A stretch of 64,000 bases of DNA from assembly GCF_001624705.1 (NCBI RefSeq), contig NZ_JSEO01000008.1:62001-126000 (forward strand). The letters run 5' to 3'. How positions within the stretch are numbered: position 1 is the stretch's first letter; every line of letters begins with the position of its first letter. This DNA comes from Marinomonas sp. SBI8L (GTDB lineage: Bacteria; Pseudomonadota; Gammaproteobacteria; Pseudomonadales; Marinomonadaceae). The position numbers were made by a program, and so were the translations under genes. The notes below the pieces were generated by a model. The model did no database searches and was not told the origin of the DNA. It worked only from the letters and a program-made list of their open reading frames with translations. Of the stretch, positions 48,317-64,000 are shown piece by piece.

Positions 48317-48525
48317 ATGATGAAAGAGCTGGTTTAAAATTCGGCTCATGCGGTAAAAGCAGATGATGGACGAAAGGTTGGCTTAAAAGTATCAGGGTCA
48401 CTGTCTGTAGAGCATGGAATGTTACCCTTGGTTTAACCCTAGAAGAGGCCAAAAAGCTAATGTCAGATATGGAAAAGGCCATTGAGTTCAAAGAAAGCTT
48501 TGAAGGTGAGGATAAAAGCCTTTAG
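48317..48525 (+). pseudogene. Broken small gene at the left edge of the phage element
   Basis: A decayed coding sequence not visible as one frame. From an ATG pair at 48317 the frame meets TAA at 48335-48337. The same frame then reads HAVKADDGRKVGLKVSGSLS and VEHG up to 48417. A one-base loss at 48416-48418 shifts to the frame that continues NVTLGLTLEEAKKLMSDMEK and ends at TAG 48525. Joined, the two parts read smoothly across the break. Product unknown. Confidence 0.5.
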
Positions 48526-48652
48526 GCGATGATTAATTGCTTCAAACTGAAGCAGTATGAACTGATTGATGGTTTAACAAAGTACTGAAAGTATCTTTAG
48601 TAGAGAATTTGATAGCTGCGAGAAGCGGCTATCAAATACAGGGTTTTATAAA
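48526..48652. repeat. Two hairpins next to the repressor stop
   Basis: A perfect 6-3-6 hairpin lies at 48539-48553 and a perfect 10-bp stem with an 11-base loop at 48607-48637. The second lies just downstream of the repressor gene (minus strand) but has no T run. It could end repressor transcription or be part of an attachment-site region; no second copy can be sought within this window. Confidence 0.4.
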
Positions 48653-49378
48653 TTAGAGCAGTACTGAATACCAAAAAACGCGACCGATGACTCTGACGTC
48701 TAAGGCACTCTCTCCACTAAGCTCTTCATCATGATGGTCTGGGTTAGCTGAGCGAATTCTTAAACCATTAAAAGGTAGTCGATATAGGTATTTTACCCTT
48801 AGCATGCCGCCATGCTCGATAGCGTACATTTTTCCGTCTTGAATCTTGGTTTGGCTGGTATCTAGGCCAACCGTTGAACCGTTAGGTAGTATTGGCTCCA
48901 TGCTATCGCCATTCACTTTACAGCAAGCCACTGTCTCACTTGAAACACCTGCTTTATTAAGGGTTGAGACATTAAATCTAAGTTTTTGGGTGGCAATATC
49001 TAGCACGTTGTTAAATCCGTTTCCTGCTGACAACTCAATTTCACTGAAAAAAGGTATTTCTACCTCGTTTGGGTTTAAAGGGGTATCACTGTCCCAAGCA
49101 TCAATATGCCCTAAGTTAAGATGGCTATCTCGCTTGTTGTCCTCTTGAGTTTGAGTTGCCTGCATTTCTCCCTTGCCATATTCAAGCCATTCTGTTCTAA
49201 CGCCTGTGGCGACAGAAATGGTTTGTACTTTTTCGCGGCGTGGTTGAGATTCACCATTAAGCCATTTATTTGCTGCCTTAACGGTAGTACCGGTTTGTTT
49301 TGCTAGCCAAGCCCCAGCGCCATGACGCTGTATGCCTGCTTTTTGCAGTGCTATGAGAAGCCGATCTGAAAAAGACAA
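48653..49378 (-). CDS. LexA/CI-type phage repressor (HTH plus S24 peptidase)
   Basis: A 241-residue repressor. An N-terminal helix-turn-helix region (about 3-70, with VKAANKWLNGESQP) is followed by a linker and an S24 self-cleaving peptidase domain. The nucleophile Ser159 lies in NGDSMEP and the general-base Lys196 in LRVKYLY. Ala118-Gly119 in LSAGNG is the likely cleavage site. I prefer the TTG at 49378 with AAGGT upstream over a TTG at 49405, which falls inside an operator. RecA-dependent induction is expected. Confidence 0.88.
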   Translation of the reverse strand: MSFSDRLLIALQKAGIQRHGAGAWLAKQTGTTVKAANKWLNGESQPRREKVQTISVATGVRTEWLEYGKGEMQATQTQEDNKRDSHLNLGHIDAWDSDTPLNPNEVEIPFFSEIELSAGNGFNNVLDIATQKLRFNVSTLNKAGVSSETVACCKVNGDSMEPILPNGSTVGLDTSQTKIQDGKMYAIEHGGMLRVKYLYRLPFNGLRIRSANPDHHDEELSGESALDVRVIGRVFWYSVLL

Positions 49379-49397
49379 AGTGATTACCTTAAATTTA

Positions 49398-49469
49398 TGA
49401 ACCAAGAGTTCAATTATGATTCATTGTTGCGGAACTTTCAGTTCATATGTATTATGTACTAAAAGTTCA
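49398..49469. promoter_or_regulatory. Repressor operator array, consensus TGAAC-N5-GTTCA
   Basis: Three sites with the same 5-5-5 geometry: 49398-49412 is a perfect inverted repeat; 49431-49445 has one mismatch (GGAAC); 49455-49469 has one mismatch (TGTAC). Centres are 33 and 24 bases apart. A fourth, weaker half-conserved site lies at 49516-49530. They sit between the repressor and the first rightward gene, as in lambdoid and P2-like switches. Confidence 0.75.
49413..49455. promoter_or_regulatory. Divergent promoters of the phage switch
   Basis: Rightward: TTGCGG at 49427-49432, a 17-base spacer and TATTAT at 49450-49455. The second operator fills the spacer and the third overlaps the -10 end. 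Leftward (repressor): CTGAAA (complement of 49436-49441), a 17-base spacer and CATAAT (complement of 49413-49418). The first operator lies over its expected start, about 49405. The layout predicts repression of both directions. Confidence 0.6.
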
Positions 49470-49588
49470 TTTAATGATTTTAAAAATGTACTCAATCATT
49501 AATATGAATTGATAGGTGACCTTAAGTTCACATAGTTCGATCAAATGCAATAAAGGTATGGCAGAAGCCTGCTGCTGGAGGAAGGAAG

Positions 49589-50134
49589 ATGACAGCTCAC
49601 GCTCTTCACGTTAACTATCCAAAAACACTCTTATTTTCTTTTACGACAAGTGAAAGGAATCTTTTGAAGGAAATAGCAGGGCATTGGATGAAGATGTATG
49701 CCTGTCATGAGATTGATCGTGGCAATTTGGTTGGATTTCATTTTTTAACCGTATGGGACCCTTTAGTCACCTTAGAAAAAATTAGGCTTCAGCCTTGCTT
49801 TAAAACTGATGCAATCAGAAGAGATGGCTATGAATTTGATATTGGTCGTCAGCGAGATGTCCCTCTATGTGTCTACGAAGTGCAGATGCTGAGTGAAATG
49901 GTGAAAGCCGCTGTGGAATGTCGCTTAAATCGATTTTTGTTAATAGATAAAGGTTCTATGGCAGATGTTGTGGGAAGACGCTTAACCTGGTCTTGGATGA
50001 ATAGTCAGGTCACCATTGCCTTATCTCAAAAGCTGGATCTATTAGATCAGGTTGCAGGTCTTTTTTATGGACACAGCGCTTATCAATCTAGTTGTTTAGC
50101 AATTGAGACATTAGCAGGTGTTGAATATGCCTAA
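49589..50134 (+). CDS. Unknown phage protein, first gene of the rightward operon
   Basis: A 181-residue protein I do not recognise. A very strong ribosome-binding site (GGAGGAAGGAAG) precedes the ATG. It has no signal peptide or membrane segment and is rich in aromatic and basic residues; FHFLTVWDPLVTLEKIR and CVYEVQMLSEMVKAA are its most regular stretches. Its end overlaps the replication gene by 8 bases. By position it could be a replication or early control protein; this is inference only. Confidence 0.75.
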   Translation: MTAHALHVNYPKTLLFSFTTSERNLLKEIAGHWMKMYACHEIDRGNLVGFHFLTVWDPLVTLEKIRLQPCFKTDAIRRDGYEFDIGRQRDVPLCVYEVQMLSEMVKAAVECRLNRFLLIDKGSMADVVGRRLTWSWMNSQVTIALSQKLDLLDQVAGLFYGHSAYQSSCLAIETLAGVEYA

Positions 50135-51875
50135 GCAAATATCTTTAACTCCATCCAAATCAAACGCGACAAATGAATGTTTTAAGTGGCGTCACTCTTT
50201 GTTAAGTTCGCTGCATCCAGATGACGCAAGATTACTTGGCGCTAGGCTATCAGAGAAAGATCAGATTTTCGGCTATATTGCTGCTAATACTTGGCTAAGA
50301 AAGGTGATAGGTCGCTATCAGCTGTTAGCTAAGCTTTCTACGCTTAGGCCAGTGGTTGCTAAAGAAGCGAACCGTCTAGCGCACTACCTTGATGAAGAAA
50401 GTGCCTATGCTTGGTTGAAAAGTGTAGTTCAGCGTTTGCAATATTGTGACACCTTAATTACCGATTTAAGTGGCGAGACGTTAGCGGCTTGGGCTTGGCA
50501 AAAAAGTCATGGCTTTGAAGTCGAATTGGTAAAAATAGGTACTCAATCCAATGCTGAAGCGGTGAAAGCTTATATAGAGCTTCATTTGCGACAAGCTGAC
50601 GTTGATTTTCACAACTGGCAAGATAATGACAAGGTTGCAGGCCTTGCTGCTCGCATGATTACCGCTAAATGGTGGGTGAGACAAGCGAGAAGGCAATGGA
50701 TCAAGGTTGAGCAGGTATTAAGAGAGTGTGGTCAGGTTCACAAATATGCTTCACCTTATGTATCCCACTGGTCTCTTAAAAAAGAACAGCAAAAGCAAGC
50801 GAATCAAATGGCTTTTCTAGAAGGCTGGGAAGCCATAAATGATCAAGGTCAAGCTTATAGTTTGGCACAACTTGCTGAATTAGGTGTGGCTAGCCCTGAC
50901 AAGCGTTTTGCTGAGCTTATGGTCCGAAGCCGTGGCTTGGAAGAGGTCGCGAAAGAACAGGATCATGATGCTTGGTTTATTACCCTGACTTGTCCTTCAA
51001 AATATCATCCTATTTCGCAAGGTAGGCGTAACCATAAATATCGATTGGCAAAGAGTCCAACCGTGCAAGAGGCTCATGCTTATCTAAATCATGTGTGGCA
51101 ATGCTTTAGGGCCTGGTGTCATCGTCACGGTATTGCATTTTATGGTGTTAGAACGGTGGAGCCTCATCATGATGGTACACCTCACTGGCATCTAATTGTG
51201 TACCTAGATAAAGCGCAATCTGATCACTTTTTAGCGGCATTTAAACGTTACGCGCTAGCGGAAGATGGCCAAGAAGCGGGCGCTGAAAAATACCGATTTA
51301 AAGTGCTTAAAATAGTGCCTGAAAAGGGAACGGCGACCGCTTATATCACAAAACACATTTCAAAAAACCTCCATGGTAAACACCTTGATACAGACCATGA
51401 AACAGGTCGTTCTGGGGTGGATGCTGCTAAGCGTATTGTGGCTTGGGCAAGATTAAATCGAATCAAACAATTTCAATTTATCGGTGGTGCTTCTGTCACT
51501 GTATGGCGTGAATTAAGGCGACTACAGATTAAGGCTGCTCCTCGTGCATTTGCGGCCATTTATCATGCGGCAAATCGAGCGGATTATGCTGCTTTTATCA
51601 AACTTATGGGCGGAGCTTTTGCGGGGCGTAAACAAACGCTAGTTACCCACTATAGTGAACCAGAAGAAAATCAGTATGGGGAAATGGTGAAAAGCATTAA
51701 AGGGGTAGCAAATGGCATAGAGGTTGTTATTACGCGTCTTTATGAATGGCGAGTACAGCGTAAACATCTGGAGGCTATCGAAGAAACAGTCTCTGAACTT
51801 ACTTGGACTAGTGTCAATAACTGTACGCCAAGCCGATTACTCATGAATACTCACATCACTAATCAAGCATTTTAA
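50127..51875 (+). CDS. P2 gpA-like phage replication endonuclease (HUH)
   Basis: Rolling-circle replication initiator of the phage gene A family. I use the ATG at 50127 (582 residues, AGG eight bases upstream) rather than the GTG at 50118. The metal-binding HUH motif is H353-W354-H355 in DGTPHWHLIVY, preceded by WFITLTCPSKYHP. The catalytic helix reads YITKHISKN: Tyr406 is present, but the second tyrosine of the P2 YxxxY pair is His410. This may weaken or change the strand-transfer cycle. Confidence 0.9.
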   Translation: MPKQISLTPSKSNATNECFKWRHSLLSSLHPDDARLLGARLSEKDQIFGYIAANTWLRKVIGRYQLLAKLSTLRPVVAKEANRLAHYLDEESAYAWLKSVVQRLQYCDTLITDLSGETLAAWAWQKSHGFEVELVKIGTQSNAEAVKAYIELHLRQADVDFHNWQDNDKVAGLAARMITAKWWVRQARRQWIKVEQVLRECGQVHKYASPYVSHWSLKKEQQKQANQMAFLEGWEAINDQGQAYSLAQLAELGVASPDKRFAELMVRSRGLEEVAKEQDHDAWFITLTCPSKYHPISQGRRNHKYRLAKSPTVQEAHAYLNHVWQCFRAWCHRHGIAFYGVRTVEPHHDGTPHWHLIVYLDKAQSDHFLAAFKRYALAEDGQEAGAEKYRFKVLKIVPEKGTATAYITKHISKNLHGKHLDTDHETGRSGVDAAKRIVAWARLNRIKQFQFIGGASVTVWRELRRLQIKAAPRAFAAIYHAANRADYAAFIKLMGGAFAGRKQTLVTHYSEPEENQYGEMVKSIKGVANGIEVVITRLYEWRVQRKHLEAIEETVSELTWTSVNNCTPSRLLMNTHITNQAF

Positions 51876-51938
51876 TTTTGGCACAAATCTCATTTTTTAA
51901 TTTAAGCAAACTCATTTAAACAAAGTAAGGAGTCTTCC

Positions 51939-52199
51939 ATGGCATTTCGTATTGAGTGTCCTAACTGTCAGTCTAAGGCTGTCATTTCTAACAGTAATAA
52001 TATCGCAAAAGATATTGACCAGGTTTTTATGAAGGAGCTGTATTGCCGCTGTTTGAATATAGAAACCTGTGGTTGTACCTTTGTGGTCTCGGCCTCATTC
52101 TCCCATTACCTGAACCCACCGCAACAAGATATTGTGGCTATGGCCAAGGAGATACTAAAGAAAGAGCAACAGCTTAAGCTGGAAGAGGGGAGGTGTTAA
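51939..52199 (+). CDS. Ogr/Delta-type late-gene activator with zinc finger
   Basis: An 86-residue homologue of P2 Ogr and P4 Delta, which recruit RNA polymerase to late promoters. It has CPNC (C7, C10) and a second cluster LYCRCLNIETCGCTF (C36, C38, C44, C46). The second part has one residue more than the usual YCxCxNxxCxxxF spacing. AAGGAG precedes the ATG. In P2, Ogr is encoded at the far end of the tail operon; here it is right behind the replication gene and in front of cargo genes. Confidence 0.85.
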   Translation: MAFRIECPNCQSKAVISNSNNIAKDIDQVFMKELYCRCLNIETCGCTFVVSASFSHYLNPPQQDIVAMAKEILKKEQQLKLEEGRC

Positions 52200-52261
52200 A
52201 CTCTCATTTAATTTGATGTGAATCGGTTAAGTTTATTGAATAAGCATGAGAACTAGATTTA

Positions 52262-53089
52262 ATGGCAAACTTTGATAAAGCGTTTAATTTACGAAGGCGG
52301 CATCCAACTGGCATGTTGCATATGCTTGCTAACGAAGTGCAAAGTAGGCTTACTCGGTTAAGTTATCGTGCAAGCTTAGATGTGAGCTATGGACCAAGCC
52401 CTGGTGAAAAACTGGATATCTTTCCTGCGGCGAAGGAGAATGCTCCTGTGTTTATTTTTATTCACGGCGGTTACTTTAGGGCGTTAGACAAAGCTCAATA
52501 TAGTTATTTGGCACAAGCTTTTGTGAAAGCTGGTTGTACCTTGGTATTGGTTAATTATGACTTAGCGCCAAAAGTGACGGTTAAAGAAATAGTTGATCAA
52601 AACGTAAAAGCCTTTGCTTGGGTGCATAAGAATATACATAAGTGGCAAGGAAACCCTGAACACCTTGTTGTTGGTGGTCATTCTGTGGGTGGTTTTTTAA
52701 CCGCTAAAATCCTTGCTCATGATTGGCCTCAAGAAATAAAACAGAGTATCAAGGGGGCTGTTATGCTAAGTGGGCTTTATGACCTTAAACAGATGCAGCA
52801 GTCCTTTTTAAATAAAGTGTTAAACCTGAGTGATCAGGAGGTGGCTGAATTAAGCCCTATTTTGGAAACAGGTGTATTTAACTTTGTTCCTCACATCATT
52901 ATGGCAGTGGGAAATGATGAAACGAACGAGTTCATTCGACAAACCCAGGTTTATAGTGAGAAGCTAAAAAAAGAGAATTGTCGTTTGGACTGTTTATTTT
53001 TAGAGGGCAAAAATCACTACACAGTATCGCGCTTATTAAGTCATAAAGAGAATACCTTAATGGAGAAAATATTCACTTTGTTGGTTTGA
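52262..53089 (+). CDS. Alpha/beta hydrolase (esterase/kynurenine-formamidase-like), probable cargo
   Basis: A 275-residue cytoplasmic alpha/beta hydrolase. It has the oxyanion motif FIHGGYF (HGG at 68-70), the nucleophile elbow GGHSVGG with Ser141, an aspartate in the GNDE region and a late histidine in GKNHYT. The nearest family impression is esterase/lipase or kynurenine formamidase-like. It is not a phage structural or lysis protein, so it looks like a cargo (moron) gene placed where head genes would be expected. Confidence 0.82.
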   Translation: MANFDKAFNLRRRHPTGMLHMLANEVQSRLTRLSYRASLDVSYGPSPGEKLDIFPAAKENAPVFIFIHGGYFRALDKAQYSYLAQAFVKAGCTLVLVNYDLAPKVTVKEIVDQNVKAFAWVHKNIHKWQGNPEHLVVGGHSVGGFLTAKILAHDWPQEIKQSIKGAVMLSGLYDLKQMQQSFLNKVLNLSDQEVAELSPILETGVFNFVPHIIMAVGNDETNEFIRQTQVYSEKLKKENCRLDCLFLEGKNHYTVSRLLSHKENTLMEKIFTLLV

Positions 53090-53120
53090 TCCTAAGTTAT
53101 TCACTCAGTGTTTTTTGAAG

Positions 53121-53783
53121 ATGGATTGCAAAAAGGATGTTGATATTTTGAAGTGGGTTTTATTTATTTTACTGCTTTGTACTTCGCTACAAATACAAGG
53201 GAAAGAAGCTATGTCTCAGGAACATATATCTCAGGAAAAGGTGTCAAAGGAAAGTGACTTGAAAGCAGCCATATTCATGGAGAGCATGCCAACAGGTTTT
53301 GTTGTTCCACCTGCTGAAACACAGCAAGATAGTCTGATATTAGAGCAAATTAAAAAAGTGGGTTGGTACAACCTGCATATAGGGCAAGAGGATAATCAAG
53401 CTGCTTTCTCATTTAGCATTGGTCATTTTCAACAACATAATCACCCTGAGTTAATTCTAGTTGGCTTGCCTGCCGAAGTCGCAAATCAGTTATTAAATAT
53501 TGCGGTTGTTAAAATTGTCGGTGCAAAAGAAAGGCTTGAGCCTTATAAAAAATATGATGACTTTACTGAAGGTCTTGCTGTTGCTTTTATTCCTGTTGAA
53601 TTAGATTTCTATCGGAACTATCTAGGCTACGCAAACTGGTATTATGGTGACTTACCAAAACCTTACCCTGTCTTGCAAATGGTGTGGCCTGACCGAGAGG
53701 GCAACTTTCCATGGGATACAGAATTTGATACGAGTTTTAAACAAACTCAGCCTCTATTAAGTTTTGGGCCAAACAAACCCTAA
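53121..53783 (+). CDS. Exported DUF4262-type protein, probable cargo
   Basis: A 220-residue protein with an N-terminal hydrophobic export signal (WVLFILLLCTSLQIQG) and a DUF4262-like domain from about residue 70 (GWYNLHIGQEDNQAAFSFSI, then GHFQQHNHPELILVGL, and LQMVWPDREGNFPWD near the end). The start is uncertain: ATG 53121 is used, but TTG 53115 and TTG 53150 share the frame. Family function is unknown. It follows the hydrolase by 31 bp and ends before a hairpin shared with the opposite-strand gene. Confidence 0.75.
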   Translation: MDCKKDVDILKWVLFILLLCTSLQIQGKEAMSQEHISQEKVSKESDLKAAIFMESMPTGFVVPPAETQQDSLILEQIKKVGWYNLHIGQEDNQAAFSFSIGHFQQHNHPELILVGLPAEVANQLLNIAVVKIVGAKERLEPYKKYDDFTEGLAVAFIPVELDFYRNYLGYANWYYGDLPKPYPVLQMVWPDREGNFPWDTEFDTSFKQTQPLLSFGPNKP

Positions 53784-53789
53784 TTAAGT

Positions 53790-53819
53790 TAGGATTAGTC
53801 TGTATTAAGACTAATCCTA
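53790..53819. terminator. Hairpin between the convergent cargo and coiled-coil genes
   Basis: A perfect 12-bp stem (53790-53801 with 53808-53819) and a 6-base loop between two convergent genes. Neither strand has a strong T run afterwards, so terminator strength is uncertain, but the place is right for a two-way stop. Confidence 0.65.
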
Positions 53820-53841
53820 TGGCTTCTGATTATCTTTCTAC

Positions 53842-55629: not shown

Positions 55630-55961
55630 GTCTTTTTCCTTTTTTATGAATGTGTTGCCAGCTGCAAGGTTACTTATTTAGCCATGCTTTATGCGCTGAC
55701 AAGGGCATATTACCTATCAAAAAACGTATAAATAACGCTTTTTAGGACAGTGTTTTGTGATACCTGAAAAATCGCAATTTAGTGGATTTTAGTCGCTGGA
55801 AGCCAGTCTCTGGCTGGCTTATTCTGCATCTATCGACAAGGCAAGGATGTCTTAAGGGGCCAATAGGATGGCCCAGGGAAGCAAGGATCTTCTCGTCGAT
55901 CACTCTTAGGAGTAAGAGGGCAAAAGCCCAATCTATAAAGCAGTAAAAGAGAAGCGAGTTT
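55630..55961 (+). other. Structured leader region before the tail operon
   Basis: 332 bp without a long gene. On the plus strand, hairpins can form at 55801-55815, 55857-55874, 55903-55918 and 55918-55929. A 13-codon frame at 55868-55909 (MAQGSKDLLVDHS) has AAGGGG eight bases upstream, and its stop lies in the 55903-55918 hairpin. The minus-strand promoter of the coiled-coil gene must also be here. No TGT-N12-ACA Ogr site was recognised. Confidence 0.5.
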
Positions 55962-56429
55962 ATGGAAAAGCTTGAAGCACTAAAAAGTTACTTGATTGCA
56001 AAATCAAACTTATCGGCAGGCGCTATCAGTGCACAAGTGCAAAGTATGGTGCTAAAGCCAAAAGGTGTGGATGAAGGGAATCAAGTCTTGCTGCATAACC
56101 TGAGCTACCGCGCAGTCATTAACCTAATTGGCTTCCCTTATCAGGTGCAAGAGATTGCTAGCTTTAATGCTCATCTGATGACCTGGCTGGCAGACAATGA
56201 TGACAGGGAAGAATTGGAAGACGCTTACCCAAGTATCTCAGTCGATCTGCAAGATGCTCAAACCGCTAATTTAGAAGTGAGTTTAGGGTTTGAAGAGCCA
56301 GTTTATATCTCTTCAAGTCTTGGTGGTGAGATTGAGTTTGCTGATCAAACTTGGGTCTTGGGTAGCGCAGAAATAGATTGGGCTTTGAGTGCTGAGGTAA
56401 CAGGGAATCTAGTGAACTTAGCAAATTAA
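55962..56429 (+). CDS. Phage tail completion protein (P2 gpR-like)
   Basis: A 155-residue tail-end protein. The order of a short helical start, the YRAVINLIGFPYQVQEIASF strand-helix, then LMTWLADNDDRE and a beta-rich acidic C terminus parallels P2 gpR. In P2, gpR helps finish the tail where it meets the head. Its retention is notable if no head is made. It is the first gene of the tail module, behind a structured leader. Confidence 0.75.
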   Translation: MEKLEALKSYLIAKSNLSAGAISAQVQSMVLKPKGVDEGNQVLLHNLSYRAVINLIGFPYQVQEIASFNAHLMTWLADNDDREELEDAYPSISVDLQDAQTANLEVSLGFEEPVYISSSLGGEIEFADQTWVLGSAEIDWALSAEVTGNLVNLAN

Positions 56430-56629
56430 AGGAATAAGAGGTTAGGTCAGGAAGACCAATATCCAGAATGTTATCTGCTTATTTAAGGATAAATAGACAA
56501 AGGCAATGTGGATAGAAGGAGAAATGAAAGGGCCCAAGGATGATGGCCTGACATTTCTAAAACGTCAGCGCTAGGGCTGGAGTAGCCCTAGCGTTATGAC
56601 TAAAAAGTTAAACAAAACAGGAAGTTAAA
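56430..56629 (+). other. Second structured leader, before the sheath gene
   Basis: 200 bp with a strong perfect 10-bp hairpin at 56569-56593 (5-base loop), not followed by a T run. A 16-codon frame at 56524-56574 (MKGPKDDGLTFLKRQR) follows an AAGGAG, though with a spacing of only two bases. Its stop codon lies in the left arm of the hairpin. A GGCC/GGAT/GGCC motif also resembles the first leader. Confidence 0.5.
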
Positions 56630-57739
56630 ATGGCTTTAGGACAAGTTAGCGTAAGTGACGTAGATTCAGGGCAGGGAGACTTTTCCTCTCCAGAGCGTCA
56701 GTTCTTATTTATTGGTAAGGCAAGCGCGAATCTAGATAGCATTCTGTATCTAGATCAAAGCTCAGATTTAGATGTGCTTTTGGGCGCATCGGCAAGTGGC
56801 TTAAAAACAAGCTTAGCGGCCGCTAAGGCAAATGCCTCAGCAAATTGGACCGCCGTTGTGATGCCAAGAACCAATGAAGGTGAATGGCAAACAGCATTTG
56901 ATATTGCCATGGGGCAAAACATTGTATGTGAAGCCGTTGTGGTGGCTGATGCGATTACGGCTCAAAGTGAGCTAGATCTTATTGCGACTGCGATTGCAGA
57001 AACTGAAAACAACTATGGTCGTTCTCTTTTCTTTGTGGCAGCGACAGCAGCACCAGCGGCTTCAGACAAATGGGATGCTTTCATTAGTGCTTTTGATACT
57101 TTGCAAGATGGTGTGGCGTCAACTGGCATTATGCTGATTCCAGAAGTGTTTGCGGGTTGGATGGGGACTGTCTGTGGCCGTCTATGTAATGAGGCTGTGA
57201 CTATTGCTGATACACCCATGCGTACTCAAACCGGTGCCATTGTTGGCTTATCAACACTTCCTTCTGATGTGGATGGTACGGTTTTTAATATGGCTCATGC
57301 CAAAGCGCTGAATGATGCCAGAGGGACAGTGCCGCAAGTTTATCCTGATTATGATGGTATCTATTGCAGTGACGGTATGACACTTGCGCCAGAGGCCAGT
57401 GATTATGCTGTGATTGAAAACCTGCGTGTCGTGAATAAGGCCAAGCGTCAGGTGCGTATTCTGGGCATTAAAAAAGTCGGTAACCGTGAGCTAAACAGCA
57501 CTCCTTTGTCGATTGCCGCCCATGAAACTTACTTCATGCGCCCGATCATAGATATGAGCAAAAGCTTAACCTCCAATGGCATTTATAAGCCAGGTGAAGT
57601 GAAACCACCTCTAGATGGGGATATCACAATTAGTTGGGCATCACGAACCAAGGTGCAAATCGCACTTTTAGTTCGCCCTTACAACTGCCCTAAAGCGATT
57701 CAAGCTTATATCGCCCTTAATCTAACTAGCGAGGTTTAG
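56630..57739 (+). CDS. Contractile tail sheath protein, DUF2586 type
   Basis: A 369-residue sheath protein of the DUF2586 group, found in VHML/Mannheimia-type myophages in place of classical FI. It starts MALGQVSVSDVDSGQGDFSS and has the ERQFLFIGKAS motif, a central strand-rich region (GIMLIPEVFAGW) and a C-terminal sheath-like end (IQIALLVRPYNCPKAIQAYI is nearly the family end). The tube gene follows after 1 base. Confidence 0.9.
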   Translation: MALGQVSVSDVDSGQGDFSSPERQFLFIGKASANLDSILYLDQSSDLDVLLGASASGLKTSLAAAKANASANWTAVVMPRTNEGEWQTAFDIAMGQNIVCEAVVVADAITAQSELDLIATAIAETENNYGRSLFFVAATAAPAASDKWDAFISAFDTLQDGVASTGIMLIPEVFAGWMGTVCGRLCNEAVTIADTPMRTQTGAIVGLSTLPSDVDGTVFNMAHAKALNDARGTVPQVYPDYDGIYCSDGMTLAPEASDYAVIENLRVVNKAKRQVRILGIKKVGNRELNSTPLSIAAHETYFMRPIIDMSKSLTSNGIYKPGEVKPPLDGDITISWASRTKVQIALLVRPYNCPKAIQAYIALNLTSEV

Positions 57740-57740
57740 C

Positions 57741-58190
57741 ATGCAACATATTTCGGGATCAGATATCAATATTTCCATTGGTACTCAGATTATTAACGTT
57801 AAGCAATACACCCTAAATGTGGAAGACGGCATTAAGCCAACTACGACTCGCGGTGTGCCTGATGGCTTTGTTCGTGGTGCTGTCTCTGCCAGTGGTGAAA
57901 TCACATTGGATACTCAAAGTTATAACAAGCTGGTGGAAGCGGCTAGAACGGCAGGCTCATGGCAGCAACTTGGCGTGTTCGACATTGTCGGTTTGGGTAA
58001 AACCCTAGATCAAGAATTTAAAACGGCGGCTTATGGTTGCAAGTTGCGCCTGAGCAAGGTGCTAGATGCCAGTGGTGAAGGTGGTGACAAGCTGGAGCAT
58101 ACCATTGCTTATGATGTGACTGATAGCCGTTTTATCGAAATCAATGGCGTGCCTTATTTGGATAAAAGTTTCATTGAGACCCTAGGCTAA
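57741..58190 (+). CDS. Tail tube protein, DUF2597 type
   Basis: A 149-residue inner-tube protein of the DUF2597 family. It starts MQHISGSDINISIGTQIINV and has the family motifs TTRGVPDGFVRGAVSASGE and, further on, KTAAYGCKLRLSKVLD. It forms the tube inside the DUF2586 sheath. Its stop overlaps the start of the amidase by one base (TAATG). Confidence 0.9.
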   Translation: MQHISGSDINISIGTQIINVKQYTLNVEDGIKPTTTRGVPDGFVRGAVSASGEITLDTQSYNKLVEAARTAGSWQQLGVFDIVGLGKTLDQEFKTAAYGCKLRLSKVLDASGEGGDKLEHTIAYDVTDSRFIEINGVPYLDKSFIETLG

Positions 58191-58594
58191 TGGAGCAAAT
58201 AGATTACCTAGTGGTGCACTGCTCAGATACACCTAACGGCCGAGAAACTCACGCTCAAGACATCCATAGATGGCATTTAGAACAGGGTTGGGACGGCATA
58301 GGTTATCACGCAGTAATCACCTTAAAAGGCGAGGTGCAATGGGGCCGACCAAGGTATTGGCAAGGTGCTCATGCTGACCCTTTTAATGCTAAGTCTTTAG
58401 GTGTCTGTCTTATTGGAAGGGATGAATTTACTAACGCACAGATGAGAGCGCTAGAGGGGCTTTTACTGTCGCTTAAGTTGGATTATCCCAAGGCAAATGT
58501 GGTGGGACATAGGGATCTGAACTCTCATAAAACCTGTCCAAATTTTGATGTCAAAACCTGGTGGTCAGGTGTTGAACAAAAAGGGATAGATTAA
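58190..58594 (+). CDS. Endolysin: N-acetylmuramoyl-L-alanine amidase
   Basis: A 134-residue amidase_2 (T7 lysozyme/PGRP type) that cuts the amide between muramic acid and the stem peptide. Zinc ligands are H10, H107 and C116, with K114 matching the catalytic lysine of T7 lysozyme. No signal peptide is present, so release depends on the following holin genes. It is inserted between the tube and chaperone genes as a lysis cassette. Confidence 0.93.
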   Translation: MEQIDYLVVHCSDTPNGRETHAQDIHRWHLEQGWDGIGYHAVITLKGEVQWGRPRYWQGAHADPFNAKSLGVCLIGRDEFTNAQMRALEGLLLSLKLDYPKANVVGHRDLNSHKTCPNFDVKTWWSGVEQKGID

Positions 58595-59020
58595 ATGCTG
58601 GGATTAATCAGTGGCCTACAAAGTCTTTTGGGTGCCTTAGCGGCACCCATTTCTAAGGCTTATCAGGCAAAGCAGACAAGGAAAGCAGCGGCAGAATCTG
58701 CACAAGCCAAACTTAAGCTGGTGGGCCAAGAAAAGCGTTTTGATTTGGACTTAAAGGAAGCCGAATGGGAAGCGTTGGCCAAGCAGCAAGAGTCTGCTTC
58801 TTGGAAAGATGAATACGTGACTTTGATTATTACTTCGCCTTTTGTGCTGCTTTTTCTTGCTGCTATGGCCAGTGGTTATAGCGGGGACATGCGCTATCTA
58901 GATGCAGTCAATCTGGGTTTAGAAAGCTTGAAGTCCTTAGGGGTTGAGCTAGGTGAGTTATTAAAAATAGTCGTACTGGCGGCTGTCAGTATTAAGGGCA
59001 TGGGATTGTTAAGGAAATAG
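58595..59020 (+). CDS. Holin-like membrane protein (GTA_holin_3TM/DUF3154 type)
   Basis: A 141-residue protein. A basic, Ala/Lys-rich helical N-terminal half is followed by WKDEYVTLIITSPFVLLFLA, a first clear membrane helix near 78-95, and a second hydrophobic helix near 118-136. This pattern fits the GTA_holin_3TM family, whose role in lysis is proposed rather than proven. It lies between the amidase and a second small holin. Confidence 0.75.
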   Translation: MLGLISGLQSLLGALAAPISKAYQAKQTRKAAAESAQAKLKLVGQEKRFDLDLKEAEWEALAKQQESASWKDEYVTLIITSPFVLLFLAAMASGYSGDMRYLDAVNLGLESLKSLGVELGELLKIVVLAAVSIKGMGLLRK

Positions 59021-59030
59021 GGAGGCACAC

Positions 59031-59213
59031 ATGGAGAAATCCACAGTAGCCACCGCATATGGGGCGTCGATAACTACGACGCTTGCAGGTTTTTCAATGA
59101 ATGAATGGGTTGCCATGGGTGGCTTGATCATTGGTATCGCAACATTTTTAACCAATTTTTGGTTTAAACGAGAGCACTTAAAACTGGCTCAGAAACAAGT
59201 ACAAGGAGAGTAA
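59031..59213 (+). CDS. Small HP1-type holin
   Basis: A 60-residue protein with two hydrophobic stretches (about 8-22 and 27-46) and a basic C-terminal tail (WFKREHLKLAQKQ). Size, MEKST start and the GIATFLTNFWFK motif resemble the HP1 family of phage holins. It would form lesions in the inner membrane and let the amidase reach the wall. A strong GGAGG precedes the ATG. Confidence 0.78.
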   Translation: MEKSTVATAYGASITTTLAGFSMNEWVAMGGLIIGIATFLTNFWFKREHLKLAQKQVQGE

Positions 59214-59215
59214 CA

Positions 59216-59542
59216 ATGGCACAACTCATTGAGATCACCATAGGTGATACAGATTTTGAATTTAAGGTAACAGACAAAGAGTACAACAAGTTTGTTGATG
59301 CCATGGCCAAAGGCCAAACAGTCTTACCTGCATACAACCTTTTGTCGTCAACGGTTAAAAGTGAGCAGCATGCAAGCTTGAAAGCCTTGATGGTGAATGA
59401 AGATTCACAGCCAAAAGCTAAATTGGTCATGGATGTGATGGGCATTCTAACCGACGAATTCTCCAGTGATCTGCCTACGGTGGTAAAGCTGCGCAGGCGT
59501 TCCGGGACAGCATCGACAAAAATGGCTTCGAGCAACTCGTAA
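59216..59542 (+). CDS. Tail assembly chaperone (E-type)
   Basis: A 108-residue tail assembly chaperone, the likely equivalent of P2 gpE. It starts MAQLIEITIGDTDFEFKVTD, with a helical middle and an end near LPTVVKLRRRSG. It sits just before the tape measure gene, the fixed place of such chaperones. A second frame (-1) opens at 59470 and runs past its stop, so an E+E' frameshift product is likely. The A-AAA-ATG stretch at 59518-59524 is one candidate slip site. Confidence 0.82.
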   Translation: MAQLIEITIGDTDFEFKVTDKEYNKFVDAMAKGQTVLPAYNLLSSTVKSEQHASLKALMVNEDSQPKAKLVMDVMGILTDEFSSDLPTVVKLRRRSGTASTKMASSNS

Positions 59543-59550
59543 CCTTGAGA

Positions 59551-59682
59551 ATGCGCTGGCTTCCTCATGAAGATGATGAACCGGAAAGCCTAGGACGGGC
59601 GCTTTGGTTAGAAGAAAGAGAAATAAACAGGGAAACGGCAGCCATTGCCAATGGTATTGCCAAGGCCTTTGCAGGGAAGTAG
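59551..59682 (+). CDS. Short E'-type frame (DUF6890-like)
   Basis: A 43-residue frame, MRWLPHEDDEPESLGRALWL and on to IANGIAKAFAGK, in the -1 frame relative to the chaperone. The ALWLEER and ANGIAKAF stretches resemble DUF6890 proteins. The frame is open upstream to 59470, so this is probably the C-terminal part of a frameshifted E+E' product rather than a separate gene; the ribosome-binding site at 59551 is weak. It ends 13 bases before the tape measure. Confidence 0.6.
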   Translation: MRWLPHEDDEPESLGRALWLEEREINRETAAIANGIAKAFAGK

Positions 59683-59695
59683 CTAGGGGCAAAAA

Positions 59696-61345
59696 ATGGA
59701 AACACTGGAAAAATTACAGCTGAGCCTTGGCAAGCTAAATCAGTTTACGAATGCTTTTGATGGGATGCAAAACAGTGTTCAAAAGCTGGCAAATGTTATG
59801 AAGAGTGCTTTTGAAGCGCCATTAAAGGCCGTTTCAAGTTTACAGGCAAGTTTGCCAAAGGTTACCCAAGCTGTCGCAGACATCAATATTGCTTCAGCAG
59901 GCAATATGCCTCTAAACCCAACCCAAGGGGTGGGAGCAAATGCGAATCTAGCTGCTGTGGCCAATAGCCCAGCAGAAGAGGTTGTTATGGATGTGGCGGA
60001 GCCGGTTTCTAGGTTGCAGCTTTTGCACGACTCATTAGGGAAAGTGAAGGGGCAAGTTGCCAGTTTAAAAACCTTAAGTGGCGACAACATCATGGGGCGT
60101 GTGTTTGGGGATGCCAATATCTCTGCCTACACGGATTCTTTTGCCACATTGAAACAAGGTTTGAATGAGCAACTAGCGCTTTGGCCTGAATTGAATACCA
60201 AGGTTCAGGCGCTTTCTGGCAACCTAATGTCGCAGCTCTCACCCATGTTAGGTCCTTATATTGATGAGGTAAAAGCCATGGGGAAAAGCCTAGATAACTG
60301 GACTGAGAAGTATCCAAATCTTGCAAATGCGGTTAATACGGCAGAACAAGCTTTAGGGTCCATGATGGAAGTGATCAATATGGTGGGTGTCGCTCAGGAA
60401 ATGCTGAACTTGGCCAAAAGCCATGCCATAACGCTGTCGCAAAATTGGTTAGTAAAGAATTTGGTTATTACGCCTCTGCTCAAATTACAGGCAGCGGCAG
60501 TTTGGATATTGAATGGCGCAATGAAAGCCATGGTAGCAACAGGGCCTTTATTGATGGGGATATTTACCTCTTTAAAAGCCGGTGTACTCACAAGCTTGCC
60601 GGCGATTTGGAGTTTTACTGCGGCTTTATTGGCAAATCCGATTACTTGGATTGTGGTGGGTATCACGGCCTTGATCGGTGCCCTTGTCGCCATGGTGGTT
60701 TACTGGGATGAGGTGAGTGCCGCTATAGGCCGCTTTACGGATTGGGTCTTCTCTTCGTTAAGCCAGGGCTTTAGCTTTATCAAGGGCTTGTTCGCTGACA
60801 ATGAGTGGCTCAAATTAGCCTTCTTTCCTCTCTATGCTGTGATTGAAACAGTCGATTTATTGATAGGAACATTTGAGCAAATTCCCCAGTGGTGGGGAGA
60901 GTTTCAAGTCTGGCTGGGTGAGCTATCCCTTATGCCTAACATGAGCTTTGATTTTGCCTTTATTGAAACCATCAAAGCTGCTTGGAGTGAACTAAAAAAC
61001 TGGCTTGCGAGTTTGAACCCTTTTGCTTTTGTCGGAGAGTCGGCTGACTGGATTAAAAGTAAATTGAGCTGGCTGCCGGGTATGGGTGCGAGCTCAGATA
61101 TCAAAGCAAATCAGGGCTTGTCACAAAAAGTTGCTGAGCAGGGTATGGCGCAAGGTGCAAACCTCACCTTACCAGGAGCAGAGGCATCTCAGAATGGTGA
61201 GCAGGGCGGCTTATTTCAGACCTTCAGTAATTTATTTGCCAGTACCAGTAAGCAAAGCCATGTGGAAAAAATTGAAGTGAATAATTATGGCCAAGGGGTG
61301 CGTGGTGATGAATTGGCCCATGAAATGGAAATGCAGGTGGGCTAA
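59696..61345 (+). CDS. Tail tape measure protein
   Basis: Sets tail length and is the largest tail gene here. The 549-residue protein has a long helical N-terminal half rich in Ala, Gln, Leu and Met, hydrophobic membrane-like segments near 275-345 (for example WIVVGITALIGALVAMVVYW), and a Gly/Gln-rich end. With the general ruler of roughly 1.5 angstroms per residue it predicts a tail of about 80 nm, shorter than P2. It overlaps the next gene by one base. Confidence 0.88.
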   Translation: METLEKLQLSLGKLNQFTNAFDGMQNSVQKLANVMKSAFEAPLKAVSSLQASLPKVTQAVADINIASAGNMPLNPTQGVGANANLAAVANSPAEEVVMDVAEPVSRLQLLHDSLGKVKGQVASLKTLSGDNIMGRVFGDANISAYTDSFATLKQGLNEQLALWPELNTKVQALSGNLMSQLSPMLGPYIDEVKAMGKSLDNWTEKYPNLANAVNTAEQALGSMMEVINMVGVAQEMLNLAKSHAITLSQNWLVKNLVITPLLKLQAAAVWILNGAMKAMVATGPLLMGIFTSLKAGVLTSLPAIWSFTAALLANPITWIVVGITALIGALVAMVVYWDEVSAAIGRFTDWVFSSLSQGFSFIKGLFADNEWLKLAFFPLYAVIETVDLLIGTFEQIPQWWGEFQVWLGELSLMPNMSFDFAFIETIKAAWSELKNWLASLNPFAFVGESADWIKSKLSWLPGMGASSDIKANQGLSQKVAEQGMAQGANLTLPGAEASQNGEQGGLFQTFSNLFASTSKQSHVEKIEVNNYGQGVRGDELAHEMEMQVG

Positions 61346-61656
61346 TGGACAGCATAGATTTAAGCATCATAGATGATGACTTGGTATTAAACCAATTGGG
61401 AGAACCTGAGCTTAGGGCAGAGGCAGATTGTATTGCACAAGACCTAAGACACATGCTTAGAGAAAAAGGTTATGCCTTTAGCATGATAGGTGAGAGGAGT
61501 CAGGTAAAACTGGCCACTCTCACCACTCAGGTAGAAATTGAAATGGAAAACGATACACGTATTTACCCAGGGACGGCCAAGGTGGCGCTAATAGGGGAAG
61601 CACTTAACTGTAGTGCACGTACGTTAAATAACGAAGCGATAGAGGTAACCCTATGA
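61345..61656 (+). CDS. Baseplate-associated protein, DUF2590 family
   Basis: A 103-residue protein of the DUF2590 family. It starts MDSIDLSIIDDDLVLNQLGE and has CIAQDLRHMLREKGYAF and a GERSQVKLATL stretch. By size and place (before J) it should be the functional equivalent of the gpW/gp25-type wedge protein. It overlaps the tape measure gene by one base and the J gene by 4 bases. Confidence 0.82.
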   Translation: MDSIDLSIIDDDLVLNQLGEPELRAEADCIAQDLRHMLREKGYAFSMIGERSQVKLATLTTQVEIEMENDTRIYPGTAKVALIGEALNCSARTLNNEAIEVTL

Positions 61657-62846
61657 AGGAATTTGAAAGCCTATTAAAGGATGAAGGTGTACCCATTACC
61701 GAAGCTGAGATTAAGGCGGCATTTAAGCAAACCGTGACAGATTCTGGCTCTAAAATCAGTAATGATTCTGCCTATAGCCCGTTTTGGCGCTTGATCTCAG
61801 CGATCGCGGTTCAACCTGTGATCTGGCTGGTGAATGCTCTGGTGCAAAGTGTTATGCCACAGTTTTTCTTAAAGACAGTTGGAGAGGGTTTTATTGACCT
61901 GTGGGGTAACAACTATGGGGTAGAGCGAAAAAAAGCTCAACGGCTAGAAGGCCGGCTGCAATTTACTCGAGCAGATCAAGAAGGGGATATTGAGATTCCG
62001 CTTGGTACACGGATTCGTACCGAGCCCTTGAATGACATTGTCTATGAACTGGAATCAACTTATCCAATCGTGCTGGGTAAAGAGGATAACTCAATTAGTG
62101 TGCCGGTTCGTGCTGTGGCAGAGGGCAAGGCCTATAACTTGGAAACGGGTCAATATGTGAACTGTGATATCCAAGGCGTCACTGTGACAAATCCTGATGG
62201 TTGGATTCAAGTAGTAGGGGACGATGATGAAGACATTGAAGCTTATCGCCTGCGTATTCGTAATGCTTTTAACTCCTTAAGTCATTATCACACGGATGGG
62301 GTATATCGACATTTGATTGCGAAGTTTGCCGGTGTCTCCACTGACATGATTTGGTTTGAACATGGTGTGAAAAGAGGTGGAACTAGCGTGGTGCCAGGCG
62401 CGGCTGATGCTTATGTTTTGTTCGAGCTTGATGCCCCAGCTGACAGTTATCTAGAGATTATTAATCGCATGATAAGGGATGAAGGCTACCACGGGCATGG
62501 TGATGATTTACTGGTTAAAAAAGTGCCCGATTTACTGGTAGACCTTGGTGTCACTGTTTATTTTCCTGTGGCATTAACAGCGGAAGAAAAGACAGCTAGT
62601 TTGACAGGTATTGAGCAGGCGATTGAAGCGGCTTTTAGGTCAAATTCGGCTTATGTGATGACACAAACTCAGCCCTATTCTCGCTTTTCATTTACTCGGT
62701 TAGCCAGTGAGGTTTATCAAAACTTTCCTGAGATAGAGAGTATTGATTTTAAGGCCATTACTGATGGGGAAGAGGTGATTGGAAGCCACATAAACGCTGA
62801 ACTTGAAATCCCACGTTTGGCATCACTCAGTATACAAGAGGGTTAG
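61653..62846 (+). CDS. Baseplate J-like protein
   Basis: A 397-residue baseplate wedge protein. It has an N-terminal helical part with FLKTVGEGFIDLWGNNYGV, a beta-rich central region (IPLGTRIRTEP, then VPVRAVAEGKAYNLETG) and the EDIEAYRLRIRNAFN motif of the J family. A C-terminal region close to other J proteins completes it. It overlaps DUF2590 by 4 bases and the gpI gene closely. Confidence 0.92.
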   Translation: MKEFESLLKDEGVPITEAEIKAAFKQTVTDSGSKISNDSAYSPFWRLISAIAVQPVIWLVNALVQSVMPQFFLKTVGEGFIDLWGNNYGVERKKAQRLEGRLQFTRADQEGDIEIPLGTRIRTEPLNDIVYELESTYPIVLGKEDNSISVPVRAVAEGKAYNLETGQYVNCDIQGVTVTNPDGWIQVVGDDDEDIEAYRLRIRNAFNSLSHYHTDGVYRHLIAKFAGVSTDMIWFEHGVKRGGTSVVPGAADAYVLFELDAPADSYLEIINRMIRDEGYHGHGDDLLVKKVPDLLVDLGVTVYFPVALTAEEKTASLTGIEQAIEAAFRSNSAYVMTQTQPYSRFSFTRLASEVYQNFPEIESIDFKAITDGEEVIGSHINAELEIPRLASLSIQEG

Positions 62847-62848
62847 TG

Positions 62849-63478
62849 ATGGTTGCTAAATTTGAGTTGCCTGTATGGATTCGAGAAGGCAAAGAAATTA
62901 ACAAGCTAGCGGATGCTTTTGCGACCTTTTGGGATAAAACGGAAGATTGGATAAAAACACCACTTAACCAGCTAGATGCCGAGACCTGCCATGTGTATGT
63001 GCTTAAGCTTTTGGCGTATCAAAATGATATTGACCGATTTGCTGATGAGCCAGATGAGCTCTTTCGAAAACGAGTAAAACACGGGGTAAAAAATGCCATA
63101 GATGCGGGCAGTAAAGGCGGCTTTAAAGAGGTTCTAGCACGCTTTGATGTGCCCTTGTATGGGCAGATAGAAAGAGACAGTGAAAGTGACTGGGATGTTA
63201 TTACCCTTTGGCTAGCTGACTCTAGTTTGACCCAAAATCCAGAGCTTGCTCACCATATTATTCGCCAATATGGCCGAACCTGTCGCCGTTATGAATTTTT
63301 GATGGTGGATGCTATTGAATCCATCGCCGTAGAGGGATTTAGCTTTGGTATTGATAGAGGGGTAGAGCAAATAAGTGGACGAACGGAATATGTATTTGCT
63401 GATACGACAGAGCCTGCTAAGGCAAGTATCGCTCAGCACTTTATTGAACGAAGTGAAGATAGGATAAAAGTAATTTAA
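62849..63478 (+). CDS. Tail protein I-like baseplate component
   Basis: A 209-residue P2 gpI-type protein. It starts at ATG 62849 (a GTG at 62846 overlaps the J stop), with LPVWIREGKEINKLADAFA at the N terminus. A GVKNAIDAGSKGGFKEVLAR stretch in the middle and a C-terminal YVFADTTEPAKASIAQHF follow. It links the baseplate to the fibre attachment. The fibre gene follows after 9 bases. Confidence 0.85.
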   Translation: MVAKFELPVWIREGKEINKLADAFATFWDKTEDWIKTPLNQLDAETCHVYVLKLLAYQNDIDRFADEPDELFRKRVKHGVKNAIDAGSKGGFKEVLARFDVPLYGQIERDSESDWDVITLWLADSSLTQNPELAHHIIRQYGRTCRRYEFLMVDAIESIAVEGFSFGIDRGVEQISGRTEYVFADTTEPAKASIAQHFIERSEDRIKVI

Positions 63479-63487
63479 GGACGAATT

Positions 63488-64000
63488 ATGACAGACATAA
63501 TAAGTGGAACAGTAACAGATGCAGGGGCGCGCTACATTGCCCAAAAAGCTGCGAGTTTAGAACCTGTGGTGGTCACCCACTTTATCTTGGCTAATGTACC
63601 TGGTGTGGATGAAACCACACCAGCAGACCCGAGCATGGGGATACCAACAGAATATTTGATAGATGATTTTGTTGCAGTTCAAGACCCCCATTATAACGAT
63701 GACAATGCGGTGACTTACTCACTGGTACTAGACAGTAGTGTGGGTGATTATGACTTCAATTATTACGGCATAGTCACTGACTCGGGCGAGTTATTAGCCT
63801 ATTCCTATATCCCACTGAATAAAAAGCGAAAAGATATAGGTCAGGTGATTAACCGTAATCTGGTTGTGCCCTTTAGTAATGCTAAACAGCTTACGGGTGC
63901 AGATCTGCCATTGGAATCTTGGCAGTTTGATTACGAAGCCGAAATGCTCGCCATGCAGACCTGCATAATGCAAAACAGTGCAGCGACCATATCTGCTTTA
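63488..64000 (+). CDS. Tail fibre/collar protein, N-terminal part (cut by window edge)
   Basis: Open to the last base (171 codons visible), starting MTDIISGTVTDAGARYIAQK. The first 150 residues resemble the phage tail-collar fibre N-terminal domain (PF12571 type), which attaches the fibre to the baseplate: a helical KAASLEPVVVTHFILAN start, then YSLVLDSSVGDYDFNYYGIV. The receptor-binding part is outside the window. Confidence 0.9.
   Translation, partial: MTDIISGTVTDAGARYIAQKAASLEPVVVTHFILANVPGVDETTPADPSMGIPTEYLIDDFVAVQDPHYNDDNAVTYSLVLDSSVGDYDFNYYGIVTDSGELLAYSYIPLNKKRKDIGQVINRNLVVPFSNAKQLTGADLPLESWQFDYEAEMLAMQTCIMQNSAATISAL

Follow-up and report, generated by a model that had tools for sequence, protein, structure and literature searches.

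A headless HP1-like prophage in front of trpG in Marinomonas sp. SBI8L as a probable inducible R-type tailocin with a retained replication initiator

The 64-kb stretch of Marinomonas sp. SBI8L considered here (the window; contig NZ_JSEO01000008.1, positions 62,001-126,000, of a 5.19-Mb genome) ends within a phage-derived locus, the SBI8L element. This locus spans 21.4 kb, from a repressor gene at window position 48653 to the end of a spike gene in the DNA right of the window (L002:6012, or 70012 in continued window numbering). Its genes are, in order, an S24 repressor, ORF181, the replication initiator GpA, the activator Ogr, an esterase, a DUF4262 protein, a DUF7217 coiled-coil gene on the opposite strand and gpR, followed by sheath, tube, amidase, a lysis-cassette protein, holin, chaperone, tape measure, DUF2590, J, I and FibA. 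Right of FibA, L002 holds FibB, FibC and FibD, accompanied by two small genes in the fibre-assembly position, an HP1_ORF34 protein, a hub-type gene and the spike-type gene; trpG then starts at 70371, with trpD and trpC behind it. The element therefore has the complete contractile tail, terminator and lysis genes of an R-type tailocin. The initial annotation had described a P2-related tail and lysis module with a CI-type repressor, Ogr and a replication gene, and with cargo and coiled-coil genes between the activator and gpR where head genes are expected. Pfam and phrog matches recover all these parts, the interval proves to hold the esterase, DUF4262 and DUF7217 genes, and the DNA right of 64000 brings fibre, HP1_ORF34, hub-type and spike-type genes and then trpG, with no head genes downstream of the fibre. 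The tail itself is of HP1 type and not P2 proper (sheath DUF2586, HP1 orf24, HP1_ORF34, HP1 holin).

A search for the sheath in 49 genomes of the family identified nine loci in eight genomes, all of one genus. Five of these loci (G005b, G008 from M. atlantica, G019, G030 and G046 from M. transparens) are full prophages that carry portal, terminase, scaffold, capsid, small terminase, head-tail adaptor and neck genes. Four are without the portal-to-adaptor block, namely the SBI8L element, G036 from Marinomonas sp. MED121 and the pair G041/G005a. Besides that block, the SBI8L element has lost the neck gene that stands between gpR and sheath and has neither an integrase nor a CII-like gene; several accessory genes are gone too, while every tail gene of the full Marinomonas prophages other than the neck gene is present. 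Translated searches (tblastn) with 35 head and neck proteins, three integrases and three CII-like proteins gave no match at E<=0.01 in 84 kb around the element; as a control, every one of G030's seven head and neck proteins, and likewise its CII-like protein, finds a match in G005b, whose integrase is of another kind. Portal (PF04860), Terminase_5 (PF06056) and P2 capsid (PF05125) families have no match in the whole SBI8L genome, in agreement with the claim that head and packaging genes are missing, and PF05125 is likewise absent from G036 and G041. A terminase small subunit match in MED121 (E 0.003) falls in the coiled-coil gene and was dismissed as compositional. In addition, a 20-base block directly after the spike gene, the place of cos in HP1, is exact in all five full prophages; its best match in the four headless regions has five or six mismatches, which is background level (the comparison covers these nine regions, as the related IMG/VR contig introduced below does not reach that place). 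From its position, this block is inferred to be cos. Absence of a head is not usual for this sheath type: the sheath occurs in 12 of 390 genomes of the order, and each of the ten matches found outside Marinomonas, of which one is partial, lies within ~5 kb of a capsid gene.

Haemophilus phage HP1 and its relatives phiO18P and phi3 (Peduoviridae) have the same tail, lysis and GpA families in the same order as the SBI8L element; against HP1 or phiO18P, blastp gives identities of at best 40% for sheath, 35% for J, 43% for I and 38% for GpA. HP1 and phiO18P, however, possess integrase, cox, portal, terminase, scaffold, capsid, Ad1, a gene in the neck position and cos, none of which was found in the element. 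It thus combines an HP1-type tail module with the absence of the capsid, portal, terminase, cos and integrase of an HP1-like phage. Phage_sheath_1 (PF04984), which we take to be the pyocin-type sheath family, has no match in the SBI8L genome; with its PF10758 sheath, the element is not of the R2-pyocin or MEDPRO2 type. R- and F-pyocins have other tail families and regulators than the HP1 type.

The head-deletion junction is common to the SBI8L element, MED121 and a viral contig, IMGVR_UViG_2698536582_000005, and is alignable over 332-337 bases. Head loss is thus most simply read as one event before these three lineages split, and a recent deletion was dismissed on account of the shared junction. 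All 27 open reading frames (ORFs) of the element are open in both SBI8L and MED121, with ratios of non-synonymous to synonymous divergence (dN/dS; Nei-Gojobori) of 0-0.22, including 0.109 for GpA, 0.081 for ORF181, 0.026 for the repressor, 0.045 for sheath, 0.024 for tube and 0.028 for spike. Synonymous divergence (dS) from MED121 is 0.6-1.7 in 22 of the 27, with lower values in ogr, esterase, DUF4262, holin and DUF2590; it is 0.996 in trpG, the sole right-flank host gene measured, and 1.5 or more in left-flank genes. Since all frames are open, constrained and mostly as diverged as trpG, these comparisons indicate that the headless element is old and selected rather than decaying. A defective prophage that lost its head genes by chance and has no present function would account for the missing head genes, integrase, left attachment-site (att) copy, cos-like block and CII-like gene, and for a changed tyrosine in GpA. 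This explanation is strongly disfavoured by the constraint on intact frames in two species and is further opposed by the same junction in three records and by the lack of leftover head fragments in the tblastn searches, such that we consider it very unlikely.

The viral contig is also informative about the fibres. Its proteins from gpR to I, and ORF34, hub and spike, are 97-100% identical to those of the SBI8L element, with GpA at 96% and DUF7217 at 94%, but identity falls to 89% in FibA, 30% in FibB, 70% in FibC and 41% in FibD. Consistently, dS is 0.5-1.6 in FibA-FibD versus 0-0.17 in the 11 genes from gpR to I. Such divergence on a near-identical tail shows exchange of the fibre block, and yields the variable tips on a constant tail expected of a tailocin, in one pair of close relatives. 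Fibre exchange has reportedly been found in other tailocins, going by the titles of studies on Pseudomonas syringae and Pectobacterium. FibA (188 aa) overlaps FibB by ATGA, and an N-terminal piece of ~45 aa (AKESFE type) is common by eye to FibB, FibC and FibD (window 63488-64000, L002:1-4066), as if three fibre tips docked on one base. The FibA-FibD split is also seen in G036 and the full prophage G030.

Taken together, the complete tail and lysis genes, the lost head, packaging, neck, integration and cos-like parts, the purifying selection and the exchanged fibre tips make it very probable that this is a domesticated HP1-like prophage that serves as an inducible R-type tailocin and that selection has preserved intact in its headless state. 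The proposal of a tailocin with a kept phage switch and replication gene is accordingly the best reading of the locus. An alternative is that the locus is a satellite, or depends on a helper, and either provides tails or is itself packaged in the heads of another phage. Some satellites keep a replication gene and Ogr, as this element does, and in the G005 genome a headless element and a full relative occur together. Nevertheless, the integrase and helper packaging signal of a satellite were not found (no integrase, same-strand left att copy or cos-like block), the neck gene is lost, and no P2-type capsid gene was found anywhere in the SBI8L or MED121 genomes; a satellite is hence most improbable.

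Features of the SBI8L element within the window (positions in window numbering)
Feature	Position	Strand	Evidence or remark
CI-type repressor, helix-turn-helix and S24 peptidase domain	48653..49405	-	PF00717 5.8e-20; phrog_4
Repressor/early promoter region, operator-like repeats	49406..49588		Inverted repeat 49432-49447/49453-49468 (88%)
ORF181	49589..50134	+	Directly upstream of gpA
GpA-type HUH replication initiator	50118..51875	+	PF05840 4e-70
Ogr/Delta zinc-finger late activator	51939..52199	+	PF04606 3.3e-11
Cargo alpha/beta hydrolase (esterase)	52262..53089	+	PF07859 1e-19
Cargo DUF4262 protein	53115..53783	+	PF14081 3.1e-38
DUF7217 coiled-coil protein, 595 aa	53842..55629	-	PF23854 9.9e-33
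Palindrome TTGTGAT-N9-ATCGCAA	55755..55777		Divergent late promoter gap; adjoins gpR
Tail terminator gpR	55962..56429	+	PF06891 1.3e-16
RNA hairpin, gpR-sheath gap	56564..56600	+	Core 56569-56593; -25.3 kcal/mol; z -4.2
Tail sheath (DUF2586, HP1 type)	56630..57739	+	PF10758 1.5e-124; phrog_907
Tail tube (HP1 orf24 family)	57741..58190	+	PF10772 1.5e-39
Endolysin, N-acetylmuramoyl-L-alanine amidase	58190..58594	+	PF01510 2.4e-16
Lysis-cassette protein	58595..59020	+	phrog_2524 2.3e-14
Holin (HP1 family)	59031..59213	+	PF16080 3.1e-17
Tail assembly chaperone	59216..59542	+	PF10963 3.3e-09
Tape measure protein, 549 aa	59696..61345	+	phrog_28 3.3e-09; blastp to phiO18P tape measure 1.7e-05
DUF2590 protein (HP1 orf28)	61345..61656	+	PF10761 1.9e-21
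Baseplate protein J	61653..62846	+	PF04865 9.4e-20
Baseplate/tail protein I	62846..63478	+	PF09684 1.7e-06; phrog_1228 2.1e-58
Fibre base FibA	63488..64000	+	Ends L002:54; PF12571 4.9e-20

The gene content suggests how such a tailocin would be deployed. The repressor has AG at residues 127-128, GDSM at 166 and VK at 204, which we take to be the cleavage site and the catalytic pair, respectively; on the basis of this domain and these residues, DNA damage would lead to its self-cleavage. Loss of the repressor would release the early operon ORF181-gpA-ogr, whose product Ogr would then activate the divergent late promoter at ~55755, joined to gpR by the head deletion, and thereby the genes for tail, chaperone and lysis. 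Sheath, tube and baseplate would assemble on a shortened tape measure (549 aa versus 684-746 aa in the five full prophages), with gpR capping the tail in place of a head. The amidase and holin would lyse the producer, after which the exchangeable fibre tips would select related target cells. GpA, though left with one of its two usual tyrosines, may help to switch the locus on or to amplify it at its site. Sequence similar to the early promoter region is present in MED121. ORF181 has a relative in all five full Marinomonas prophages and is a conserved partner of gpA; it has no sequence match in the PDB, and its AlphaFold model, of middling confidence (predicted local distance difference test score, pLDDT, 73.5), suggests no function. 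The gene for the lysis-cassette protein sits between amidase and holin in M. atlantica as well.

GpA retains the PHWH motif and the first tyrosine of the YxxxY motif, but the second tyrosine is replaced by His413. At 78 columns that are invariant among the five full Marinomonas prophages, HP1 and phiO18P, SBI8L differs at four and MED121 at three; the extra difference in SBI8L is this second tyrosine, and MED121 keeps both. YxxxY is intact in 12 of 13 GpA relatives on viral contigs (MED121 among them), the remaining one being IMGVR_UViG_2698536582_000005, which has the same His. A sequencing error was dismissed on the strength of this separately recorded relative. Both tyrosines serve in P2 GpA, and the single-tyrosine form may not do the full reaction. 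The two His-state records differ by 24 non-synonymous and 50 synonymous changes (dN/dS 0.133), implying that GpA is still constrained. One explanation, which we hold tentatively and at slightly less than an even chance, is that GpA is kept because an early replication step still helps to turn on or amplify the locus in place. This idea has a parallel in the tailocin rhizoviticin, in which deletion of replication genes lowers transcription of tail and lysis genes (PMC10811719). Late transcription in phage P2 depends on replication, a point that carries no weight in the present argument. Alternatively, within the same tailocin reading, GpA could be a bystander kept as a member of the ogr operon, or as a regulator and not an initiator. 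The His at the second tyrosine in SBI8L and its close relative fits this second account, whereas the low dN/dS of gpA in both comparisons, the intact tyrosine pair of MED121 and the retention of a different, constrained replication gene in a second headless lineage do not; we give it somewhat less than an even chance.

The late promoter gap corresponds to the terminase-scaffold gap of the full prophages and carries a palindrome, TTGYGAT-N9-ATCGCAA, which is exact in the SBI8L element, MED121, G030, G019 and G005b, has one mismatch in M. atlantica and has two in G046 (inside a called ORF). In the IMG/VR contigs L089 and L090, TTGGGAT/ATCCCAA stands at the same place, a symmetric change. As the gap now runs straight into gpR, the head deletion placed the tail operon behind what had been the head promoter. 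The palindrome might be bound by Ogr, though this is a guess, given that the P2 Ogr box consensus, TGT-N12-ACA (PMC3931495), does not occur in this gap. That consensus does match elsewhere; where it does so close to a repressor gene, in G030, G008 and G019, the sites resemble repressor operators. Between gpR and sheath, the RNA hairpin occupies the place of the lost neck gene, with one compensatory pair change read in MED121, and may determine how much gpR message is made relative to sheath message.

Several points weigh against the tailocin interpretation and its mechanism. Gene content, junction, losses, constraint and fibre exchange are read directly from the sequence, whereas induction, particles, lysis and killing are predicted from it. 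The larger dS values are near saturation. Loss of a GpA residue that is tyrosine in 12 of 13 relatives argues against full rolling-circle activity. With respect to the late promoter, the palindrome is absent from the gap in G041 and G005a, the other headless lineage, as well as in HP1, phi3 and phiO18P, and the P2 Ogr box is missing from the gap of the relatives as it is from that of the SBI8L element. Furthermore, two-mismatch matches to the palindrome occur elsewhere (inside genes in G036, G030, G005b, G046 and G041) at approximately chance level, with 0.1-0.8 expected per element in shuffled sequence, so that only exact and one-mismatch palindromes carry weight.

The surroundings of the element point to its prophage origin. 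Among the five full prophages, three end in front of trpG as the SBI8L element does, namely G030, G008 and G019; in these, the integrase adjoins a left copy of the core ATGATCGATAA or longer, and the right copy falls within the opening codons of trpG. A fourth case may be G046, where the prophage stops at the end of one contig and trpG begins at base 4 of a different one. The SBI8L element retains the trpG side of att: in 84 kb around it, there is no same-strand left copy of the core, the sole same-strand copy being that in trpG. An opposite-strand core at 42735 inside tssM was rejected as the left att and taken as chance. M. atlantica has an extra copy of the core, and in MED121 13 kb lie between the element and trpG. 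To the left, the tail element is separated from a host gene that ends at 17853 by a block at window 18273-48222, which encodes a major facilitator superfamily transporter, a kinase, a two-component system and a type VI secretion cluster with Hcp, VipB, TssF, a ClpV-like ATPase and IcmF; no relatives of this block were seen at that place in G030, G008 and G019.

Other genes of the element have histories of their own. In the tract at window 51939-53783, dS relative to MED121 is 0.34 for Ogr, 0.083 for the esterase and 0.148 for DUF4262, with most neighbours near 1, and the tract was therefore probably exchanged recently between lineages. DUF7217 relatives of 241-252 aa exist at six other loci and lie near the portal gene in four of the five full prophages; the gene is retained in all four headless loci, and reaches 595-599 aa via its coiled coil in the SBI8L element and MED121. 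The AlphaFold model of the short form is mostly helical, of low confidence (pLDDT 67.1), and suggests no function; PADLOC matches of the coiled-coil gene were set aside as due to composition. Head-bearing phages represented by L089 and L090 are 77-78% identical to the SBI8L element in sheath and 85-86% in tube, and L094, a contig that lacks the head region, reaches 89% over part of the sheath.

A second headless HP1-type lineage is found in Marinomonas at G041:C1 ~2.923-2.954 Mb (L015/L016) and G005:C1 ~184-209 kb (L017/L018; G005a). These elements contain tail and lysis genes, six or three fibre genes, Ogr, an integrase, a PemK-type toxin gene and a gene for a Toprim primase-like protein, and are bounded by direct repeats of a tRNA-Phe end, 46 and 60 bases long. 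Their dN/dS is 0.036 for the integrase and 0.044 for the primase, compared to 0.36 for tube and 0.44 for a neck-like gene; the element looks like a mobile tailocin. In the J tree, this lineage groups with the full prophages G005b and G046 (99/99) and away from the SBI8L element, with a long-branch warning, while the trees of sheath, tube and spike give no clear placement. On the J grouping, the two head losses are likely to be independent. It is conceivable, but on present indications unlikely, that a replication step is part of weapon deployment in the HP1-type tail islands of Marinomonas in general, with unrelated replication genes kept under purifying selection after two head losses (GpA in SBI8L, the Toprim primase-like protein in G041/G005a), a single-tyrosine GpA that nicks or fires in situ and so licenses or amplifies the tail genes although there is no virion to fill, and a second lineage that, with its integrase and its position at a tRNA-Phe gene, is a mobile tailocin.

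Parts of this combination, which the initial annotation had thought undescribed, are known from other tailocins. BceTMilo of Burkholderia cenocepacia has likewise kept a CI-like repressor and Ogr with a P2-type tail and lost the head block and S (neck), but it differs in retaining an integrase and in being of P2 rather than HP1 type, and its published description never uses the word 'replication' in the main text (PMC5411513). Xenorhabdicin also keeps CI and OgrK (PMC13280938). Rhizoviticin of Allorhizobium vitis has lost the head, kept replication genes and a LexA-type repressor and has known full prophage ancestors; it is of the non-contractile F type, however, and its DnaA-like initiator and DnaB-like helicase are distinct from GpA/HUH (PMC10811719). 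Its authors call it an early stage and single it out as an exception (PMC10811719). Within the same genus, MEDPRO2 of Marinomonas mediterranea is a mitomycin-induced contractile tail active against two other Marinomonas strains, but it is closest to R2 pyocin, spans ~13 kb and has no replication genes (PMC10870725). The R- and F-pyocins of Pseudomonas aeruginosa are headless tails beside trpG, at a trpE-trpGCD locus (PMC10598620). Unlike at that locus, the att core of the HP1-like full prophages lies inside trpG itself, and the two trpE-type matches of SBI8L are on other contigs. A contractile tailocin with a GpA-type initiator was not encountered among the matches listed in literature searches (titles and abstract openings, subscription papers being mostly outside their scope), nor by term look-up in PMC10719855, PMC9205054 and PMC11524443; to this extent, a contractile HP1-type tailocin with a constrained GpA still appears new.

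According to a review, tailocins lack head, replication and packaging genes (PMC12090994). The SBI8L element departs from the second part of this rule in having a GpA that is present and constrained, and because rhizoviticin shows that the rule has exceptions, this gene marks a variant. The survival of a constrained initiator long after head loss contrasts with the usual picture of tailocins shedding their replication genes, and the full-length phage relatives at the same chromosomal site make the role of replication in a headless tail locus testable. If it works as proposed, the SBI8L element would add HP1-type sheaths to the tailocins known to us and a second tailocin type to Marinomonas.

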